Program-made: the position numbers and the translations under genes | Shown here: piece after piece, positions 3,499 to 10,839 of the stretch | How the letters are laid out: the number at the start of each line of letters is the position of its first letter | Position numbering within the stretch: the stretch's first letter is position 1 | Notes under the pieces: generated by a model | What the model saw: the letters and a program-made list of their open reading frames with translations, nothing else | Told to the model about the DNA's origin: nothing | Databases searched by the model: none | Assembly (NCBI RefSeq): GCF_004119495.1 | Contig: NZ_NRQU01000018.1 | Span: 1-64,000, forward strand | Direction of reading: 5' to 3' | From: Flavobacterium sp. YO12 | Lineage (GTDB): Bacteria; Bacteroidota; Bacteroidia; Flavobacteriales; Flavobacteriaceae | Length of the DNA: 64,000 nt

Positions 3499-3599
3499 GC
3501 AGTAAAAAACAATTTTTAAATTATTTTTTTATCTAATTATAAAGATGCCCATTAGTACATACAACATACCAGAGATCTACACGTAATTTGTACAGTAAT

Positions 3600-3621
3600 G
3601 AGACGCACTGCCGTGCGCCTC
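3600..3621. repeat. Short hairpin repeat (REP-like)
   Basis: gagacgcac (3600-3608), a 4-nt loop, then gtgcgcctc (3613-3621), with one mismatch in the stem. Its GC-rich composition contrasts with the AT-rich surroundings. It resembles short palindromic intergenic repeats seen in Bacteroidetes genomes; copy number cannot be judged here. Confidence 0.5.
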
Positions 3622-3639
3622 TACAGTATAAACATGCTA

Positions 3640-3724
3640 GAAAAAAACTTAGAACCTTAGCCTCTCAGAATCTTAGTGTCTTTAGAAAAAACCTTTGTAC
3701 CTTTGCACCTTACAAACTTTGGAA
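3640..3724 (+). repeat. Low-complexity intergenic repeat (CTTAG / CTTTG type)
   Basis: A run of related short words (cttagaacctt, tctcagaatcttag, acctttgtacctttgc) in front of thiL. The first part resembles copies at 50359-50398, 50483-50520, 50577-50611 and 63283-63312. The second part contains the thiL -7 element, so the repeat may supply promoters. Confidence 0.5.
3698..3705 (+). promoter_or_regulatory. -7 promoter element of thiL
   Basis: TACCTTTG matches TAnnTTTG, 29 nt before the ATG at 3735. It lies inside the longer open frame that starts at 3588, which argues against that start. Confidence 0.5.
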
Positions 3725-3734
3725 CTTAAAAAAA

Positions 3735-4781
3735 ATGATCGAAGATAAAAATCCTCAACGTACCAGTATAGCGCAATTAGGCGAGTTTGGCTTGATTGAA
3801 CATTTAACCAAGAACTTTGATGTTACTCAAGAGTCTACTTTAAAAAGTATAGGCGATGATGCTGCTGTTCTTGATTTCAAAGCTAAAAAGGTGGTCGTTT
3901 CTACAGATTTATTAATAGAAGGTGTGCATTTTGATTTGGCTTATATGCCTTTAAAGCATTTAGGATACAAAGCTGTTGTGGTAAATGTATCTGACATTTG
4001 TGCTATGAATGCAAAACCAACGCAAATAACTGTTTCTGTAGCCGTTTCTAATCGTTTTCCATTAGAAGCCTTAGAAGAATTATTTGAAGGGATTACACAT
4101 GCCGCAAAAGAATATAAAGTAGACGTTATTGGTGGTGACACTACCTCATCGCAAAAAGGATTAATTATTAGTATAACGGCTATTGGAGAGGCTGATGAAG
4201 ATGAAATCGTTTATCGTAATGGCGCTAAGCAAACTGACTTATTAGTTGTAACCGGCGATATTGGTGCAGCATATATGGGATTGCAGGTTTTGGAACGTGA
4301 AAAACAGGTTTTCCAGGTTAATCCAAACAGTCAACCAGATTTGGACCCTTATACTTATTTGGTCGAAAGACAACTAAAACCTGAAGCACGCAAAGATGTT
4401 CGAACTCTTTTGCATGCGCTTGAAATAAAACCAACTTCGATGATTGACATTTCTGACGGCTTATCTTCAGAGATTATTCACATCTGCAAGCAGTCTAAAG
4501 TGGGTTGTAATTTATATGAAGATAAACTTCCTCTAGATCCGCAATTTATTTCGACTTGTGAAGAGTTTAATATTGACAGCACTACTGTTGCGATTAATGG
4601 CGGTGAAGATTATGAACTTCTTTTTACAATAGATATTAATGATTTTGATAAGATAAAAGGAAATCCAAACTTTTCAATTATTGGTCATATGGCTGATGAA
4701 AGCGAAGGAATTCATTTGGTAACTCGCGCTAATACGAAAATTGCCTTAAAAGCACGTGGCTGGGATGCTTTGAGTGAATAA
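3735..4781 (+). CDS. thiL: Thiamine-monophosphate kinase
   Basis: ThiL phosphorylates thiamine monophosphate to thiamine diphosphate with ATP, the last step of thiamine cofactor synthesis. The 348-aa product shows the family signatures in order: SIGDDAAVL near residue 36 (metal and ATP binding), STDLLIEGVHF, VIGGDTTSS, the Asp-rich MIDISDGLSSE, and NGGEDYELLF near the C-terminus. The length is normal for the family. The open frame extends upstream to 3588 through repeat-like DNA. The homologous N-terminus begins at MIEDKNPQRTSIAQLGEFG, so I start at 3735. It stands as a single gene with a terminator behind it. Confidence 0.93.
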   Translation: MIEDKNPQRTSIAQLGEFGLIEHLTKNFDVTQESTLKSIGDDAAVLDFKAKKVVVSTDLLIEGVHFDLAYMPLKHLGYKAVVVNVSDICAMNAKPTQITVSVAVSNRFPLEALEELFEGITHAAKEYKVDVIGGDTTSSQKGLIISITAIGEADEDEIVYRNGAKQTDLLVVTGDIGAAYMGLQVLEREKQVFQVNPNSQPDLDPYTYLVERQLKPEARKDVRTLLHALEIKPTSMIDISDGLSSEIIHICKQSKVGCNLYEDKLPLDPQFISTCEEFNIDSTTVAINGGEDYELLFTIDINDFDKIKGNPNFSIIGHMADESEGIHLVTRANTKIALKARGWDALSE

Positions 4782-4867: not shown

Positions 4868-5566
4868 TTAGAAGAGTCCTTTGCTCTTTGCTTCTTTTAC
4901 TAAATCATCATTTGAACCTGATTTTACTTTCAGCAGTTCCATTAAAGCAATCCTGCGTCTTTGAATTTCATTTAAAGAAATAGCAATATAATGGGGCATT
5001 TCAGAAAGTTCTGTTCCTTTTGAAAAGTGAAATAAAATCTGCTTATCAAACTCATCAATTTCTATAGAATTGTGCGGTGATTGATTTAGCATTTTTACAA
5101 CTGATTGGCTATAATACTTTTCACATTTCATTACTTTATCAAACGCAAAAAGCAATTCATCAAAAGTTAAATCATTTTTTATAACTAATCCATTCGGATT
5201 AATTGTCCTGATAATGGTTTTGATTTTCAGCAATTCTGTGTACATCGTAAGCAAAACGATTTTACAGTGCGGCATTTTTTTAATGATCAATTTTGCCAGA
5301 TCTTCGCCAGAAAAAAGATCTTTTTCTTCATAAGCCGGCATACTGATATCTAAAAAAGCAATGTCAAACTGAGGTGTATCCTCATCTTGCAATAACTCGT
5401 AAGCTGATTTACAATCGTGAGCTTGTGCAATTACAAACTCATATTCTTTGGGGTTATAGCGAGTTATTGCATTCTTATATCCTTCAATAATAAAAGGATG
5501 ATCATCGACAATTAATATATTGGGTTTTATTAATTCCGAAATTGGGGCATTGCTATCAGATGTCAT
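4868..5566 (-). CDS. NarL/FixJ-type response regulator
   Basis: This 232-aa protein has a receiver domain: acidic pair D21/D22 (ILIVDDHP), phospho-acceptor D73 (IAFLDISMP), T107 region (VLLTMY) and K129 (LVIKNDL). The C-terminal 60 residues are helical and in the position of a LuxR-type HTH, but the motif is weak. It overlaps the upstream histidine kinase gene by 11 nt, so the two are translated together and form a cognate pair. Its targets are unknown. It is the last gene of a minus-strand signalling block that also holds a small secreted protein and a LytTR regulator. Confidence 0.88.
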   Translation of the reverse strand: MTSDSNAPISELIKPNILIVDDHPFIIEGYKNAITRYNPKEYEFVIAQAHDCKSAYELLQDEDTPQFDIAFLDISMPAYEEKDLFSGEDLAKLIIKKMPHCKIVLLTMYTELLKIKTIIRTINPNGLVIKNDLTFDELLFAFDKVMKCEKYYSQSVVKMLNQSPHNSIEIDEFDKQILFHFSKGTELSEMPHYIAISLNEIQRRRIALMELLKVKSGSNDDLVKEAKSKGLF

Positions 5567-7568
5567 TTTTATGTAGGTTAATTTTTTGATCTATCGGAAC
5601 TTTAACAACTAGAAGTGTTCCTTCTCCTTTGGCAGATTTTATGGCGACTGTGCCCTTACATTCTGCGGCCCGATATTCTATATTATGCAAACCAATACCC
5701 TTTTTTTTACGTTTGGTATTAAATCCAACTCCATCATCCATAATTGACAATATAAGATAATCTATTTCGCTTTTAAACTCGACTTTTATGGTTTCTGCAT
5801 CTGCATACTTATTACAATTTTGAAGTGCTTCTTGAACAATTCTATACAAATTAATTTTAACCGTATTGTTTACAAGCTCCCATTTTATTTGAGAATCAAA
5901 AAAAGTAACCAATTTAGAATCGTATGTATTTCTTTGATTTTCAATTAGTTTATTCAAAATTAAAACAAAATTATTGACTAGTTCTGATTTCTCTCGATTT
6001 AAATCGTGCGATATTTCTCGAATATCTTCTTCAATACTTTTTAACTCAGCCAAATATTTTTTTCGTTTCGGCGCCGCAAGGCTTTCGTCTACTTTATCTA
6101 AACTATCCAAACTAATTCGAATTCCAAACATACGTCCTAAAACACCATCATGCAATTCCTGAGCAACATTTTTCTTTTCTCGAATTCGAGTTGCTTCTAT
6201 CTCATTTTGCTGCGAAATCATCAGATTATAAATGTCTTCATTTGCCACCTGCTGCTGCTGTTTAAAAAGCAGTTCTCTATTTCTTGCCTGCTGGGTTTTA
6301 TAAACATAAAAAAACAAACCTAGCAATGTACAAATACTAAAAACATACACCAGGGTTTTGTTTTTTTCTTGCAAGTTCGAGTTCTGGTCTTTTATTTCAT
6401 TTGTTTCATATTCGATACGAGAGAATTTTTCTCCCATTTTTCGCTCTGCTTTCAGCATTTTATCATTCAACCTGATATATTCCTTTGAATAAACCGACGC
6501 ATTGGCAGGATCAACAACAGCCAATTGTTTAAGTGCATCTAACGTACTAATCAATTTTGTTGTGCCTCGGGATGAATTTAACGCTTGTTTTGCAAATTGA
6601 ACGGCTCTTAAAGTATCTTTTTTTAAAGCAAAGTATTCAGACAAATGTATTTTACTAGAAACTACTCCTGATGTAAGACCTAAACTATCTCTAATTTTTA
6701 ATGATTTATAAAACAAATCCGGCAAGTTGTCAAATTCTTTTAATTTGAATTTAGAATAACCTAAATTATCAAGTAAAATGGCATATAGACTTACCCTGTC
6801 TTTAAAAAGGTTTTCTTGGTTTAAACCTTTTTCAAAAAATCCTTTTGCTTCTTTGTAATTATTCCAATTTAAATATATAAAACCTATATTATTTAATGAA
6901 GCCGCCTTATATTGAAACAATGTTGGTATTGATTTATCTTCCAAAGTCTTTAAAGCCTTGTTTTGAAACTCTAAAGCTTTTGTATATTCTCCTCTTTCAT
7001 TGTATAATATTCCTAGCAAATTATAACTTTCATAGTATAATTCATTTACGTTTTGCTGTTTTTTTAAACTGCCCAAAGCTTTAAAAACAGCTATTTCACT
7101 TTCAAAAAAATCTCCCTCGTTATATTGCAGACTTGCTTTGTTTAAAATTGTTTTTGACAGATTAAAATTATCATTCAACTTCAGATAAATTTTTTCTGCT
7201 TTATAGTAATGCATGAAAGCACTATCCGAAATGGATTGAGAAGCATAATAATCTCCCAAATAGCTGTATGCTTTTGCCATATGGACAGAATCACTAGAAT
7301 TAGTTGCTCTTTCTAAGATTAACTTGGTTACTTGAAGATAAGATTTCCAGTCACTTATATTATAATATCGATTGGCAACCTTAAAAAGATTTACTTTATT
7401 AAGAGAATCATCCTTCTGATTTAGAATTACATTTAACGCTTTCTCATTGTAACCCTTCTTAATATTCAAAGGAAGCTTATCTTCATTTGCTAATGATAGA
7501 TACGTAGACAAACTATCTATTGTAGGAATTGCATTTTTATCAAATTCTGTTTTCTTGGTACATGCCAT
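5556..7568 (-). CDS. TPR-containing sensor histidine kinase (HisKA_3 type)
   Basis: The 670-aa frame contains about seven TPR-like helical repeats (residues 60-350), one transmembrane helix (about 405-423), a coiled-coil linker, a HisKA_3 dimerisation domain with the phosphorylated H473 (AQELHDGVLG), and a HATPase_c domain (N-box VQEALQNCNKYADA, G-box DDGVGF). It pairs with the overlapping NarL-type regulator. The sensor region lies N-terminal to the only helix and should be periplasmic, yet the called start MACTKKTEF lacks a signal peptide. Upstream, another frame from TTG at 7612 encodes a Lys/Arg-rich hydrophobic leader ending at a stop that touches this ATG. Adding one nucleotide would make a lipoprotein leader running into LMAC. 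The 5' end is therefore probably frameshifted or misread. Confidence 0.85.
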   Translation of the reverse strand: MACTKKTEFDKNAIPTIDSLSTYLSLANEDKLPLNIKKGYNEKALNVILNQKDDSLNKVNLFKVANRYYNISDWKSYLQVTKLILERATNSSDSVHMAKAYSYLGDYYASQSISDSAFMHYYKAEKIYLKLNDNFNLSKTILNKASLQYNEGDFFESEIAVFKALGSLKKQQNVNELYYESYNLLGILYNERGEYTKALEFQNKALKTLEDKSIPTLFQYKAASLNNIGFIYLNWNNYKEAKGFFEKGLNQENLFKDRVSLYAILLDNLGYSKFKLKEFDNLPDLFYKSLKIRDSLGLTSGVVSSKIHLSEYFALKKDTLRAVQFAKQALNSSRGTTKLISTLDALKQLAVVDPANASVYSKEYIRLNDKMLKAERKMGEKFSRIEYETNEIKDQNSNLQEKNKTLVYVFSICTLLGLFFYVYKTQQARNRELLFKQQQQVANEDIYNLMISQQNEIEATRIREKKNVAQELHDGVLGRMFGIRISLDSLDKVDESLAAPKRKKYLAELKSIEEDIREISHDLNREKSELVNNFVLILNKLIENQRNTYDSKLVTFFDSQIKWELVNNTVKINLYRIVQEALQNCNKYADAETIKVEFKSEIDYLILSIMDDGVGFNTKRKKKGIGLHNIEYRAAECKGTVAIKSAKGEGTLLVVKVPIDQKINLHKNDI

Positions 7569-7631
7569 TAAAACAAAAATAAAAGCAATATTATTTTACG
7601 TTTTTTTTTCAATTGCGATTTAGAGTTTCAC

Positions 7632-7639
7632 CAAAAATA
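7632..7639 (-). promoter_or_regulatory. -7 promoter element of the kinase-regulator operon
   Basis: Minus strand TATTTTTG matches TAnnTTTG. Transcription would start near 7625, about a dozen nt before the TTG at 7612 that opens the leader-peptide frame. This supports translation beginning upstream of the ATG at 7568. Confidence 0.45.
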
Positions 7640-7655
7640 GTAAAACTATAGACAC

Positions 7656-7687
7656 AAAAAAAAAGCTGTCAAAAAATTGACAGCTTT
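7656..7687 (-). terminator. Rho-independent terminator
   Basis: Perfect 11-bp stem aaagctgtcaa / ttgacagcttt (7662-7672 with 7677-7687); read on the minus strand it ends in a long T-run. It terminates the small secreted-protein gene, separating it from the kinase promoter. Confidence 0.85.
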
Positions 7688-7710
7688 ACTATATATTATT
7701 CTAAGTTTAA

Positions 7711-8028
7711 TTAATCTAATTTTTTATCTGTTCCAATAGATTGATTAACACTTGCAAAATTTAAATGTGAATTACTTCTTACTTGATGAAAATCAGCTTT
7801 CTTTTGTCCGCCTGTAGCACCTGTTCCATCCGTATCCATTAATTGTTCTCTTACTTGATGAAAATCAGCTTTTTTCTGTCCGCCTGTAGCACCAGTTCCA
7901 TCTGTTTCTCCATCTCTCTCTATTGTCTGATTTTGTGCCAATAGTACTGAATTTGTTTTTGGTGTTGCAAAAGAAGTTGCTACCATTACTAAAGAAAATA
8001 ATCCGAAAGTTAAAGCTGTTTTTTTCAT
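7711..8028 (-). CDS. Small secreted protein with two tandem 24-residue units
   Basis: This 105-aa product has a signal peptide (MKKTALTFGLFSLVMVATSFA). The mature part is polar and contains two copies of TDGTGATGGQKKADFHQVR, spaced by 24 residues, the first followed by EQLMD. At DNA level the repeats lie at 7778-7836 and 7850-7908. Within the 19 repeated codons I count four differences, all synonymous, so the peptide sequence itself appears conserved. The frame is open upstream to 8076, but the signal peptide begins at 8028. It lies between a LytTR regulator and a TPR histidine kinase, all on one strand. I do not recognise a named family. A signal, ligand or propeptide role is inference. Confidence 0.72.
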   Translation of the reverse strand: MKKTALTFGLFSLVMVATSFATPKTNSVLLAQNQTIERDGETDGTGATGGQKKADFHQVREQLMDTDGTGATGGQKKADFHQVRSNSHLNFASVNQSIGTDKKLD

Positions 8029-8071
8029 GATTTGAGGTATTAATATTTTTAAATGATTTTTTTTGGAGTTG

Positions 8072-8086
8072 TTCACTTAGTGTGAA
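8072..8086. promoter_or_regulatory. Inverted repeat upstream of the small secreted-protein gene
   Basis: TTCAC (8072-8076), 5 nt, GTGAA (8082-8086), about 45-60 nt upstream of the start at 8028. No clear TAnnTTTG is seen on the minus strand here. It may be an operator; low confidence. Confidence 0.25.
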
Positions 8087-8202
8087 TCATGATGTAAAAC
8101 TAACACCGTAATCAAAAAAAATTTATACGAAAAAACAGGTTTATGGTAGATCATACCCAATTGATAGTCAATGAGCGTCAAATCAATGTAATCGCTTAAT
8201 TG

Positions 8203-9012
8203 TTAGACTTCTAAATAATTTCCGGCAGTAAAATCGGCAATAATTAAGTCAACATTTGATTTATAAGTTTTTGAAAAAGGGATCTTTTTCAATGAGTTTT
8301 TTATGTAACATACTGAGTGTCCGCTATGAATTCTTGCAATGTAATTTCGATTTATAATATAACTGTTATGAATTCGAATAAACGGATACACTAAAACGTT
8401 CTCGAAATGCTTTAATGTCTTAAAAGCTGTTATCATTTCACCAGAATTTAAATAAATATCTGTTGAATTATTATCGGCTTGAAAATATGCAATATCATCG
8501 GCATTTATATAACGATGATCTCCATATGATTTAATACAGATTATAAGTGGTCTATCAAATATTTGACCCGTTTTTGTATCTGAGCTAATTAACGTAGAAA
8601 CCTCTTGTTTAAAAACTTTTAAGTTTAGATCTTCGGTTATTTTGTTCAGTTTCAAAACTGTTTTCAACAAGTCTACAGGTATTATTGGTTTTATTAAATA
8701 ATCAAACACGCCAAATTTAATCGCATTAAAAGCTTGTTCTGTTTTTAATGTGGTAATAACAATGTGAGGAATTGTATCTAAAAACCTGTGCAATTCATTA
8801 ATAAAAGCAAGCGATAAATTACTTGAACTATCCTGGGGTTCAATTTCCAGAAAAACAATTGACGGCTTATGTTCTAAAACCAAATTTAAGCCATCTTGAT
8901 AATTAGAAGCTGAAGCCGCAAAGGACAACTCCGAAAAACCTTCAGCAATTGTTTTGGTTTTTGAAATACTCTCAGCATCATCATCAATAATTATATACGA
9001 ATACTTATTCAA
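8203..9012 (-). CDS. LytTR-family response regulator with Glu at the phospho-acceptor site
   Basis: This 269-aa protein has an N-terminal receiver domain (IIIDDDAES with acidic residues D10-D12; conserved Lys in FDYLIKP) and a C-terminal LytTR DNA-binding domain (IAYFQADNNSTDIYL, then FIRIHNSYIINRNYI). In the receiver the residue expected to be the phosphorylated Asp is E56, in IVFLEIEP. Glu here may mimic the phosphorylated state or leave the domain phosphorylation-independent. LytTR proteins bind direct repeats about two helical turns apart; such repeats occur upstream at 9161-9192. No kinase overlaps this gene; the nearest is the TPR kinase two genes downstream. Confidence 0.87.
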   Translation of the reverse strand: MNKYSYIIIDDDAESISKTKTIAEGFSELSFAASASNYQDGLNLVLEHKPSIVFLEIEPQDSSSNLSLAFINELHRFLDTIPHIVITTLKTEQAFNAIKFGVFDYLIKPIIPVDLLKTVLKLNKITEDLNLKVFKQEVSTLISSDTKTGQIFDRPLIICIKSYGDHRYINADDIAYFQADNNSTDIYLNSGEMITAFKTLKHFENVLVYPFIRIHNSYIINRNYIARIHSGHSVCYIKNSLKKIPFSKTYKSNVDLIIADFTAGNYLEV

Positions 9013-9160
9013 GATAGTTTATATTGCTTTTTCATTAATCCCTTCCAGTGCTTTCTATTTGAGATTAGAAAACAGTTTCATAAATACTTTAAGAAAAAAT
9101 TATTATTTTTCATTTTATCCGCATTTAAAAATACGAATTTCAATATTTTAAGCATTTCAT

Positions 9161-9192
9161 TGTTAATACATTACTTCAAAATGTTAACACAT
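9161..9192. promoter_or_regulatory. Direct repeats with 21-bp period, candidate LytTR site
   Basis: TGTTAATACAT (9161-9171) and TGTTAACACAT (9182-9192) agree at 10 of 11 positions, with start-to-start spacing of 21 bp. LytTR proteins such as AgrA bind direct repeats with a GTT core at about this spacing. The site lies in the long leader of the LytTR gene, so autoregulation is plausible (inference). Confidence 0.4.
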
Positions 9193-9194
9193 AC

Positions 9195-9229
9195 TGATGA
9201 AATGCAAAAATATCCGATGAATTGCATCA
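9195..9229. promoter_or_regulatory. -7 element flanked by repeated GATGAA-TGCA words (LytTR gene promoter)
   Basis: Minus-strand TATTTTTG at 9205-9212 matches TAnnTTTG. It is flanked by TGATGAAATGCA (9195-9206) and TGAATTGCATCA (9218-9229), an imperfect inverted repeat (10 of 12). CGATGAATTGCA at 9215-9226 is also a direct repeat of the first word, with a 20-bp period. A regulator could bind across the promoter. Leader length to the start codon would be about 185 nt. Confidence 0.35.
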
Positions 9230-9242
9230 TTTAAAATTAAAA

Positions 9243-9276
9243 AAATCCCAAACTCCTGCTAAGGAATTTGGGATTT
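9243..9276 (-). terminator. Terminator of glyS
   Basis: Stem aatcccaaactcc (9244-9256) against ggaatttgggatt (9263-9275), with A/T-runs on both sides, just past the glyS stop at 9298. Confidence 0.8.
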
Positions 9277-9297
9277 ATATTGTTCAGCATCCAAAGA

Positions 9298-10839
9298 TTA
9301 CATCTTCATCAACCAATTTTTCATTGAAACTTCGTTTTCAATAATACCTCTTAATTCAGAGATTTTTACACGATCTTGTTTCATTGTATCTCTATGACGA
9401 ATCGTTACCGTTTCATCTTCGATCGTTTGATGATCTACTGTGATACAAAACGGAGTTCCAAGTGCATCTTGTCTTCTATAACGGCGTCCTACAGCATCTT
9501 TTTCATCATAAGAAACATTGAAATCCCATTTTAGATCTTCTATAATCTTTTTCGAAATTTCTGGTAAACCATCTTTTTTAACCAATGGTAAAACTGCTGC
9601 TTTTGTTGGCGCTAAAACTGCCGGTAATTTTAAAACTGTTCTTGACGAACCGTCTTCTAATGTTTCTTCTTGTAATGATGTTGCAAATACAGCCAAGAAC
9701 ATACGATCTAAACCAACTGAAGTTTCTACTACATATGGCACATAGTTTTCATTCAATTCTGGATCAAAATACTGTAGTTTTCTACCAGAATATTGTTCGT
9801 GTGCTTTTAAGTCAAAATCGGTACGAGAGTGAATTCCTTCTAATTCTTTAAATCCGAATGGAAAGTTAAATTCAATATCTGCAGCAGCATTTGCGTAATG
9901 CGCTAATTTTTCGTGATCGTGAAAACGGTAATTATCTTTTCCTAAACCTAAAGATAAATGCCAGTTTAAACGTGTTTGTTTCCAATGTTCGTACCATTGC
10001 ATTTCTTCGCCCGGACGCACAAAAAATTGCATTTCCATTTGTTCGAATTCACGCATACGGAAAATAAACTGTCTCGCAACAATTTCATTTCTAAAAGCTT
10101 TTCCAGTTTGTGCAATTCCAAAAGGAACTTTCATACGACCTGATTTCTGCACATTTAAAAAGTTTACAAAAATACCTTGCGCTGTTTCTGGACGCAAATA
10201 CAAGTCCATTGCAGACTCTGCAGAAGCTCCTAACTTTGTTCCGAACATCAAGTTAAACTGCTTAACTTCTGTCCAGTTTCTAGAACCAGTTTCAGGATCA
10301 GCAATTTCCAGCTCTTCGATCAAAGCTTTTACATCTTCAAGATCGCCATTTCCTAAAGAACGTCCTAAACGCTCTCTAATTTCTCTTTCTTTAGCCAAAT
10401 ATTCAATTACTCGAGCATTTGTAGTTACAAATTCTTCTTCATTGAAAGCGTCTCCAAAGCGAGCTTTTGCTTTTTCGATTTCTTTTTTAGCTTTTAGATT
10501 AATCTTTTCAGCATAATCTTCAACTAAAACATCGGCTCTATATCTTTTTTTAGAATCTTTATTATCAATTAATGGATCATTGAAGGCATCAACGTGACCT
10601 GAAGCTTTCCAGGTAGTTGGGTGCATTAATATTGCTGCGTCTAAACCAACAATATTTTCATTCATCTGAACCATTGATTTCCACCAATATTCACGGATAT
10701 TCTTTTTTAATTCGACACCATTTTGTGCGTAATCATACACTGCACTCAATCCATCGTATACTTCGCTTGACGGAAATATAAATCCGTACTCTTTTGCGTG
10801 CGAAACCACATTCTTAAATAAATCGTCTTGTTTTGCCAT
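9298..10839 (-). CDS. glyS: Glycyl-tRNA synthetase (single-chain, alpha2 type)
   Basis: This 513-aa enzyme charges tRNA-Gly with glycine. It is the dimeric class II type (eukaryote/Gram-positive/Bacteroidetes style), not the alpha2-beta2 form. Motifs visible are: the N-terminal core FKNVVSHAKEYGFIFPSSE; motif 2 area FGIAQTGKAFRNEI and RMREFEQMEMQFF; motif 3 area VETSVGLDRMFLAV; and the anticodon-binding domain starting near VLAPTKAAVLPL. The open frame extends 21 codons further upstream, but the family begins at MAKQDDLFKNVV, so the start is 10839. A -7 element ends only 7 nt before that ATG, so the mRNA may be almost leaderless. Confidence 0.96.
   Translation of the reverse strand: MAKQDDLFKNVVSHAKEYGFIFPSSEVYDGLSAVYDYAQNGVELKKNIREYWWKSMVQMNENIVGLDAAILMHPTTWKASGHVDAFNDPLIDNKDSKKRYRADVLVEDYAEKINLKAKKEIEKAKARFGDAFNEEEFVTTNARVIEYLAKEREIRERLGRSLGNGDLEDVKALIEELEIADPETGSRNWTEVKQFNLMFGTKLGASAESAMDLYLRPETAQGIFVNFLNVQKSGRMKVPFGIAQTGKAFRNEIVARQFIFRMREFEQMEMQFFVRPGEEMQWYEHWKQTRLNWHLSLGLGKDNYRFHDHEKLAHYANAAADIEFNFPFGFKELEGIHSRTDFDLKAHEQYSGRKLQYFDPELNENYVPYVVETSVGLDRMFLAVFATSLQEETLEDGSSRTVLKLPAVLAPTKAAVLPLVKKDGLPEISKKIIEDLKWDFNVSYDEKDAVGRRYRRQDALGTPFCITVDHQTIEDETVTIRHRDTMKQDRVKISELRGIIENEVSMKNWLMKM

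Follow-up and report, generated by a model that had tools for sequence, protein, structure and literature searches.

A probable peptide pheromone cassette with a TPR-lipoprotein kinase in Flavobacterium and related Flavobacteriaceae

In the ComQXPA system of Bacillus the precursor of the ComX peptide is encoded beside the ComP kinase and the ComA regulator, which are a HisKA_3-type kinase and a LuxR-type regulator. Here we describe a cassette that follows the same pherotype logic with unrelated parts. It lies on the minus strand of a stretch of 64,000 nucleotides (the window) from Flavobacterium sp. YO12 (assembly GCF_004119495.1, contig NZ_NRQU01000018.1, positions 1 to 64,000 of the forward strand), and consists of the genes of a LytTR regulator, a small exported peptide precursor, a histidine kinase with a tetratricopeptide repeat (TPR) sensor domain and a NarL/LuxR-type regulator. 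We consider it likely that this cassette is a peptide pheromone system. Comparison of genomes establishes the gene order and its spread, the conservation of the precursor's units within species and their divergence between species, the exchange of precursor and sensor as one block and their covariation, and it strongly supports the idea that the small protein supplies a ligand for the kinase. The original prediction, made from the window alone, had proposed that the secreted repeats could be the ligand or a processed signal; we still infer this role, now with support from co-occurrence of the genes and from the joint switching of peptide and TPR domain, which that prediction had not anticipated.

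In Bacillus subtilis ComQXPA is polymorphic and communication between pherotype groups is impaired, as passages of one source state (PMC4008528). As in ComQXPA, peptide and sensor of the cassette are polymorphic and matched while the flanks are conserved. The cassette departs from that system in having a precursor with a signal peptide and often many unit copies, an additional LytTR regulator and a diderm host, and its sensor is a TPR lipoprotein domain, whereas that of ComP is multi-pass. The Agr system of Staphylococcus (AgrBDCA) likewise combines a LytTR regulator, a small precursor and a kinase and has specificity groups, and its peptide is cyclised through a Cys or a Ser, but the mature precursors in the window's genus (hereafter the genus) contain no Cys, the LytTR regulator of the cassette lacks the phospho-acceptor Asp, and both the kinase family and the sensor differ. 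No ComQ prenyltransferase or AgrB is encoded beside the precursor, and no modifying enzyme of ribosomally synthesized and post-translationally modified peptides (RiPPs) within the cassette, as judged from the gaps in 61 loci of the genus, which leave no room for ComQ (the rest of the genomes was not searched). In kind, the cassette would be a peptide pheromone arrangement of the two-component type, which would work like ComQXPA or Agr and falls outside both as these are defined.

The likeness to the RRNPP receptors (Rap, PlcR, PrgX, Rgg) lies in the TPR domain as presumed peptide receptor, and the model of this domain aligns to the Rap protein of phage Phi3T. RRNPP receptors are cytoplasmic and require peptide import. 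The analogy with Rap and PlcR drawn in the original prediction therefore holds for the TPR likeness but not for location, as Rap and PlcR are cytoplasmic and the TPR domain of the cassette stands behind a lipobox. Exported, tandem near-identical pheromone units are also found in the yeast alpha-factor precursor, a eukaryotic case with a G-protein receptor for which we claim no homology. The sex pheromones of Enterococcus are likewise tied to lipoprotein-type precursors, although there the pheromone comes from the signal peptide itself and the variable peptide of the cassette is C-terminal. A survey of RiPP clusters in Bacteroidales reports TPR genes in two clusters, with possible signalling roles, and its available passages do not describe the cassette (PMC10352776). 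Within the parts of the open-licence PubMed Central full text that were covered, no description of the cassette or of a peptide pheromone of Flavobacteriaceae was found.

Four consecutive genes on the minus strand had been predicted for the window, and the coordinates of the open reading frames (ORFs) together with their Pfam domains bear this out. The features of the locus are as follows.

8203..9012, minus strand: LytTR regulator, receiver with Glu instead of Asp (Pfam LytTR and Response_reg)
8140..8168, minus strand: probable LytTR-type operator, direct repeats ACTATCAA and ACCATAAA with a 21-bp step (motif of upstream regions)
8094..8102, minus strand: conserved promoter (-7-like) element of the small gene, TAGTTTTAC (block in 61 aligned upstream regions)
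7711..8028, minus strand: small exported peptide precursor, 105 aa (ORF and relatives)
7966..8028, minus strand: signal peptide, about residues 1-21 by eye, kept across the genus (p-distances)
7849..7905, minus strand: peptide unit 1, TDGTGATGGQKKADFHQVR (sequence)
7777..7833, minus strand: peptide unit 2, same protein sequence as unit 1 with 4 synonymous codon differences (sequence)
7714..7755, minus strand: C-terminal unit-like tail ASVNQSIGTDKKLD, ending in KxD-COOH (conservation of K-x-D; covaries with the TPR sensor)
7662..7687, minus strand: terminator-like hairpin 3' of the small gene (11-bp stem and T-run)
5556..7568, minus strand: TPR-lipoprotein histidine kinase, HisKA_3/DesK-type (Pfam, structure model, Foldseek)
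6354..7568, minus strand: sensor region (TPR) of the kinase, reaching to the transmembrane helix, which lies at about residues 406-423 by eye (model helices 19-352)
6460..7960, minus strand: approximate extent of the pherotype block, which covers the mature precursor and the TPR sensor (identity profile against L042)
4868..5566, minus strand: NarL/LuxR-type response regulator, canonical Asp kept (Response_reg; NarL-family matches below their cut-offs)

The most likely start of the small protein is the ATG at 8028, which gives 105 residues and matches its relatives; a longer frame from a GTG appears to be only mechanical. The hairpin was detected on both strands as one and the same structure, where shuffles expect 0.1.

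The small protein is matched at E <= 0.01 in 185 of 398 genomes of the genus, which probably underestimates its spread, as the signal peptide is almost the only conserved part. Our genus set comprises 60 loci fetched by such a match plus the window (handles beginning with L and G denote fetched stretches and genomes, respectively). The presence of the small gene in these 61 loci is circular, since they were fetched by it, and that of its neighbours is not: the LytTR gene and a kinase match occur in all 61 and the LuxR-type regulator in 60, with all four genes together in 60/61 (the exception is L099). The small gene starts 169-182 bases past the LytTR stop in every locus and is followed by 0-115 bases before the next gene. 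When 296 genomes of the phylum were sampled, the LytTR orthologue was found in 15 of the 18 genomes drawn from the genus (the window's own included), and all 21 LytTR matches over 270 bits fell within the window's own family. The next two matches (159 and 160 bits) are LytTR proteins with the Asp and with no such small gene seen downstream, and a wider ancient system was rejected on these grounds. Beyond the genus the small protein fails as a query because the peptide is too variable (3 of 397 family genomes match, all in the genus), and a LytTR profile matched 97 of 339 family genomes, in 76 of 237 genera, at E <= 1e-40, nine of them only below 230 bits.

Forty loci of other genera were fetched by the LytTR match alone, most of them high-ranking among the 107 genomes outside the genus that gave a match, and 38 of the forty carry the small gene, the TPR kinase and the LuxR-type regulator in the same order. 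The remaining two (L157 and L165) keep the LytTR and LuxR-type genes and have neither a kinase nor a small exported ORF of at least 45 codons between them; this applies to the locus only, as the rest of those genomes was not searched. Since both regulators persist there, they may have a role of their own. In a further set of named genomes (the best 80 of 559 loci, 76 with enough downstream DNA) a kinase match and a small exported ORF were present in 76/76, two of the ORFs being partly masked (L277, L284), and the LuxR-type gene was not found in five, four of them on short contigs. The co-occurrence in other genomes that the original prediction had put forward as its test is thus near-complete, the small gene and the kinase being jointly missing at 2/40 loci. 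In the window the cassette is flanked by a glycyl-tRNA synthetase (GlyRS) gene ending at 9298 and by a putative ThiL/PurM-like gene on the plus strand at 3588-4781, and the GlyRS gene adjoins the cassette in 60/61 genus loci. Mere conservation of a neighbourhood was rejected as an explanation of the order, as queries with ComF, GlyRS and ThiL remained unmatched in the 40 stretches of other genera, 38 of which keep the cassette.

The exchange of precursor and sensor is seen among closely related loci. Alignments and p-distances are based on 59 loci of the genus (L077 and L099 were dropped from the 61). Median p-distances were lowest for GlyRS (0.075), followed by the LuxR-type regulator (0.28), the kinase domain (0.30), the LytTR regulator (0.34), the TPR sensor (0.38) and the mature precursor (0.69). 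In the 46 pairs of loci with a kinase distance below 0.10, TPR distances from 0.15 to 0.25 do not occur, and on either side of this gap the last unit behaves differently: in the 18 pairs that share a TPR type it differs at 0-3 of 14 positions, and in the 28 pairs of other type at 4-10 of 14. A Fisher p for these pairs would not be a fair probability because the pairs share genomes. The LytTR median distances are alike in both classes (0.105 for the same type and 0.098 for the other). A cluster of eight kinases (distances up to 0.124) contains five TPR types with like units within each type, and L060 and L064 differ by 0.2% in GlyRS, 1.9% in the kinase domain and 33% in the TPR sensor, and at 10 of 14 positions of the last unit.

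At the DNA level, the identity profiles of four switched pairs each show a single trough, running approximately from the end of the signal peptide of the small gene to shortly before the transmembrane helix, between flanks that are mostly 90-100% identical (lowest 85%); the profiles were made in 150-base bins, so that the block ends are rough. The window itself provides an example, as its nearest fetched relative, L042, is yet of another type, with the kinase 97% and the TPR part 67% identical, and with 40-77% DNA identity in the block against 85-99% in the flanking bins. The reverse pattern is found between L094 and L095, where the block is 93-99% identical and the LytTR and kinase/LuxR stretches are 67-92% and 81-93% identical, respectively.

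Covariation was assessed by rank-based partial Mantel tests (499 permutations) with the kinase domain, LytTR, LuxR-type regulator, GlyRS, ComF and ThiL as controls, in 55 loci (four of the 59 lacked a ComF or ThiL match), of which 31 are of tail type (NQ tail) and 24 are others. The last unit and the TPR sensor gave a partial r of 0.34 in the 55 loci and 0.63 in the tail-type loci, with p 0.002, the lowest possible, in both. For the kinase domain of the same protein the value was -0.07 in both sets, and for ComF, which is encoded nearby and evolves about as fast as the kinase domain, it was 0.07 and 0.115. Divergence of the last unit tracks the TPR sensor and not the kinase domain.

The repeat structure of the precursor had been predicted as two near-identical 24-residue units; the repetition is real, but the units are 19 identical residues at a 24-residue period (residues 42-60 and 66-84 of the window precursor, TDGTGATGGQKKADFHQVR twice), and a diverged unit-like stretch, ASVNQSIGTDKKLD, forms the C-terminus. 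Units 1 and 2 of the window differ by four synonymous and no amino-acid-changing codons, so that the repeat is not a product of chance or low complexity, and such an origin was rejected on codon differences for the 46 repeat-bearing precursors as well. These 46, out of 154 precursors, were detected by script; 1722 paired codons of their units show 378 synonymous and 59 residue-changing differences (25 of the latter from two Arenibacter loci), a ratio that is biased because the repeats were detected by protein similarity. The synonymous differences nevertheless show that recent duplication of DNA does not by itself account for the likeness of the units. Masked precursors, duplicates, L260, L271, L285 and L294 (wrong ORF) and L291, L293, L300 and L301 (no ORF) were left out of the codon count, and the eight loci named were read by eye instead.

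Repeated units are near-identical inside one genome and different between species, for example LIGSGATGGNKKVD in four copies (L055), CDDCAHDSDDRETLA in six (L134) and TDGDDTPTDDRQS in five (L163). Within Zobellia, three species carry arrays of 1, 7 and 10 copies, with STDGDDVQIDRRGS ten times in Z. barbeyronii and once in Z. uliginosa. All precursors begin with a signal peptide, which is of the lipoprotein type (..SC) in most other genera, and the remainder is variable; in the genus the median p-distance is 0.20 for residues 1-20 and 0.69 thereafter. Many precursors, compared by eye, share a TDG- or ATG-like start and a basic-plus-Asp end. The C-terminus is K-x-D in 59/61 precursors of the genus, and none of the 61 has a Cys after residue 20; CxxC units occur in other genera. 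The window's small protein has no Pfam or NCBIfam match at E <= 1, and six precursors from other loci had none over the cut-off of the curated families except for one match of the zinc-ribbon family PF08274 in L134 (34.6 bits, cut-off 30.8), which falls on CxxC repeats and which we take to be spurious.

Some loci carry more than one candidate precursor. Two tandem precursor genes with differing C-terminal peptides lie between the LytTR and kinase genes in L293 and L301 (Aquimarina) and in L300 (a Bacteroidia bin), and a single one is seen in Aquimarina L291. A second small lipoprotein-type ORF follows the first precursor in L260, L271 and L294 (Allomuricauda/Flagellimonas), with the ends DDRKL, DDREL and DEREL.

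The kinase of the window matches TPR_12 and HATPase_c in Pfam, the latter over its cut-off, and HisKA_3 at 23.2 bits (cut-off 24). Both its His (ELHD) and the lipobox Cys are conserved in 59/59 aligned genus loci, and the TPR domain, standing behind the lipobox and ahead of the transmembrane helix, is predicted to be periplasmic. In the structure model (mean predicted local distance difference test score 83) a TPR superhelix (helices 19-352) is joined to the kinase by a long helix that spans the presumed membrane segment. A Foldseek search with the TPR model returned the TPR domains of LGN/Pins, solved with partner segments, at the top (E 5.5e-11) and above the Phi3T Rap protein with its pheromone (rank 35, E 1.3e-7); the kinase part matched VraS and DesK. 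The K-x-D carboxyl end of the precursor presumably resembles the EEVD ligands that are held by the carboxylate clamp of the Hop and CHIP TPR domains, which we offer as an idea only. In the window (7560-7620) the stretch that encodes the kinase signal peptide (SQLKKKRKIILLLFLF) is out of frame with the lipobox Cys and the TPR part, whereas in the relatives compared the hydrophobic stretch and the Cys share one frame; the break may be either an assembly error or real. In L099 (5764-10620) the kinase frame stops after 166 codons and is followed by unrelated frames, beside an intact peptide gene; that these frames are a Mu-like mobile element is a guess.

Of the two regulators, the LytTR protein of the window matches Response_reg and LytTR (PF04397, 57 bits, cut-off 22.6), and the phosphosite of its receiver is Glu in the window and in all 59 aligned genus loci. 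In the 40 loci of other genera this position is N in 29, D in 5, E in 4, H in 1 and C in 1, and Asp is found in 4 of the 80 named-genome loci (the two sets overlap in part). The original prediction had pointed to LytTR regulators as servants of peptide systems in Firmicutes. The LytTR regulator is indeed present, but because of the Glu it is probably not the phosphorylated partner of the kinase. The phospho-acceptor Asp of the NarL/LuxR-type regulator is kept in 59/59 loci, and this regulator is the more likely output of the kinase, the LytTR protein more likely serving the promoter of the small gene.

Paired ACYAYNA[AT]-like repeats occur upstream of the small gene in 47 of the 61 regions, all 47 at exactly 21 bp, against a mean of 0.7 of 61 in 20 plain letter shuffles (the motif was chosen after seeing the alignment), and TAGTTTTAC lies downstream of the pair. 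Similarly spaced repeats of a TACT type, together with TAnnTTTG, were seen by eye in 63 named loci of other genera. AgrA-type LytTR regulators bind two direct repeats about 21 bp, or about two helical turns, apart. As the repeats resemble an AgrA-type operator, albeit a putative one, we propose that the LytTR protein acts on the peptide gene and the kinase on the LuxR-type regulator. A search for a wider regulon by the promoter motif gave 28 matches (up to two mismatches) against 11 for a control pattern, many of them in low-complexity sequence, and none is claimed. In L134 (4436-6289) a tandem pair of LytTR regulator genes of the cassette type precedes the precursor with CxxC repeats.

We envisage that the LytTR protein, which lacks the phospho-acceptor Asp, would activate the small gene through the direct repeats 21 bp apart. 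The signal peptide would export the precursor, and the unit, of which species have between one and about ten near-identical copies, would be released or displayed. In the periplasm the unit, chiefly the C-terminal K-x-D copy, would bind in the groove of the adjacent kinase's TPR domain, which is predicted to be anchored as a lipoprotein, as suggested by the covariation and the block exchange. The kinase would then signal to the adjacent NarL/LuxR-type regulator, for which adjacency and the intact His and Asp argue. Precursor and TPR sensor would form a matched specificity pair that is swapped as one DNA block, giving distinct pherotypes in near-identical species.

Several observations weigh against a pheromone. 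No outer-membrane exporter-like or dedicated protease-like gene is present in the cassette, the script found no repeat in 108 of 154 precursors, and the lipoprotein-type signal in many other genera would tether the precursor, so that the ligand may be sensed by its own cell or on contact. The Mantel tests leave some phylogenetic structure; covariation with the last unit extends to the LytTR regulator (partial r 0.15 in the 55 loci, 0.23 in the tail-type loci and 0.38 in the 24 others), and in the 24 others the TPR value of 0.22 (p 0.006) stands beside 0.20 for GlyRS and 0.18 for ComF, so that this subset is not clean. The first unit gave a partial r of 0.02 with the TPR sensor over all loci. 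We rejected it as the main ligand for this reason and prefer the C-terminal unit, although both units covary in the tail-type subgroup (0.42 for the first). Lastly, faster evolution of the sensor than of the kinase part is seen in the matched pairs for paralogues that have no peptide, too.

The main rival, which we regard as unlikely, holds that the small protein does not diffuse between cells and instead acts on the kinase of the cell that makes it, as an accessory ligand in the periplasm or tethered to a membrane (CpxP-like, or a lipoprotein tuner). The lipoprotein-type signals in many genera and the lack of an exporter or protease gene fit it, and under it, too, the small protein and the TPR domain would be conserved together and covary, but it leaves unexplained why three Zobellia species differ so widely in copy number, and why eight genomes with near-identical kinases carry five sensor/peptide types, a pattern that looks like selection for discrimination.

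We give little credence to a second possibility, that the TPR sensor was diversified by something else, such as phages, hosts or changing small molecules, and that the small gene hitch-hikes by linkage. Here the controls are two adjacent TPR-kinase paralogues in the switched pairs G503/G601 and G700/G760, which in all four genomes lack a small exported ORF immediately upstream (loci L331-L334). Their sensors are 84-92% identical and the parts after the helix 94-99.5%, which would suit hitch-hiking. That these peptide-free TPR kinases have much less variable sensors than the cassettes of the same species pairs speaks for the pheromone reading. Hitch-hiking fits poorly with the agreement of sensor and peptide in 46/46 near-identical pairs (18/18 and 28/28; the pairs share genomes), with units that stay constant within a genome while their DNA drifts, with the joint absence of small gene and kinase at two loci, and with a predicted periplasmic position of the TPR domain, which phages would hardly reach.

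It is very improbable that the peptide is an antagonistic agent, a bacteriocin or kin-discrimination effector, which the kinase system senses or protects against. A hypervariable exported peptide with a matched partner is typical of toxin-immunity pairs and the units are short, charged or glycine-rich, but the gaps on either side of the small gene could barely fit an immunity, exporter or maturation gene, and the variable partner is a sensor kinase with an intact His rather than an immunity protein. That the small protein is a structural or low-complexity repeat protein with no part in signalling, for which the Gly/Asp-rich units might speak, is extremely improbable given the fixed place between two regulators and a kinase, the conserved signal peptide, the protein-constant units within genomes and their covariation with the sensor, and is largely refuted by the block exchange.

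Returning to a pheromone as the preferred explanation, we lean slightly towards a broader view in which Flavobacteriaceae use a private pheromone family that is read by periplasmic TPR-lipoprotein kinases, with several pairs per genome and with pherotypes traded between species. The trading would, on balance, take place by homologous recombination of the block, bounded by the signal-peptide codons and the codons of the transmembrane-kinase part. If true, this would be, as far as our literature search shows, the first peptide pheromone language of Bacteroidota, and a large family of environmental bacteria of soil and water would have peptide signalling with pherotypes. TPR sensor domains of Gram-negative kinases would join the known peptide receptors, and the switched loci would supply natural combinations of ligand and receptor, both matched and mismatched. 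As the predicted ligands, being short peptides, are open to chemical synthesis and the predicted receptor is encoded by the next gene, the proposal is directly testable, and the many-copy precursors and the sharp block exchange offer a clean system for the coevolution of signal and receptor.

Further TPR kinases also carry such small ORFs, suggesting that the pairing of a variable small precursor with a TPR kinase may be general. A third paralogue has sensors that are 71% identical in G700/G760 (both tandem copies) and 80% in G000/G581, with 96-98% identity after the helix, and a small lipoprotein-type ORF with a conserved start and a variable end lies directly upstream of it in G000, G581, G700 and one of the two tandem copies of G760. 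In the window's own genome two TPR kinases other than that of the cassette (L339, contig C4, 3600-5588 and 11645-13615) each have a small lipoprotein-type ORF just upstream, and for the second of them the upstream ORFs of relatives again show a conserved start and a variable end. These two kinase/ORF pairs are candidates for a second family of peptide/TPR-kinase pairs.

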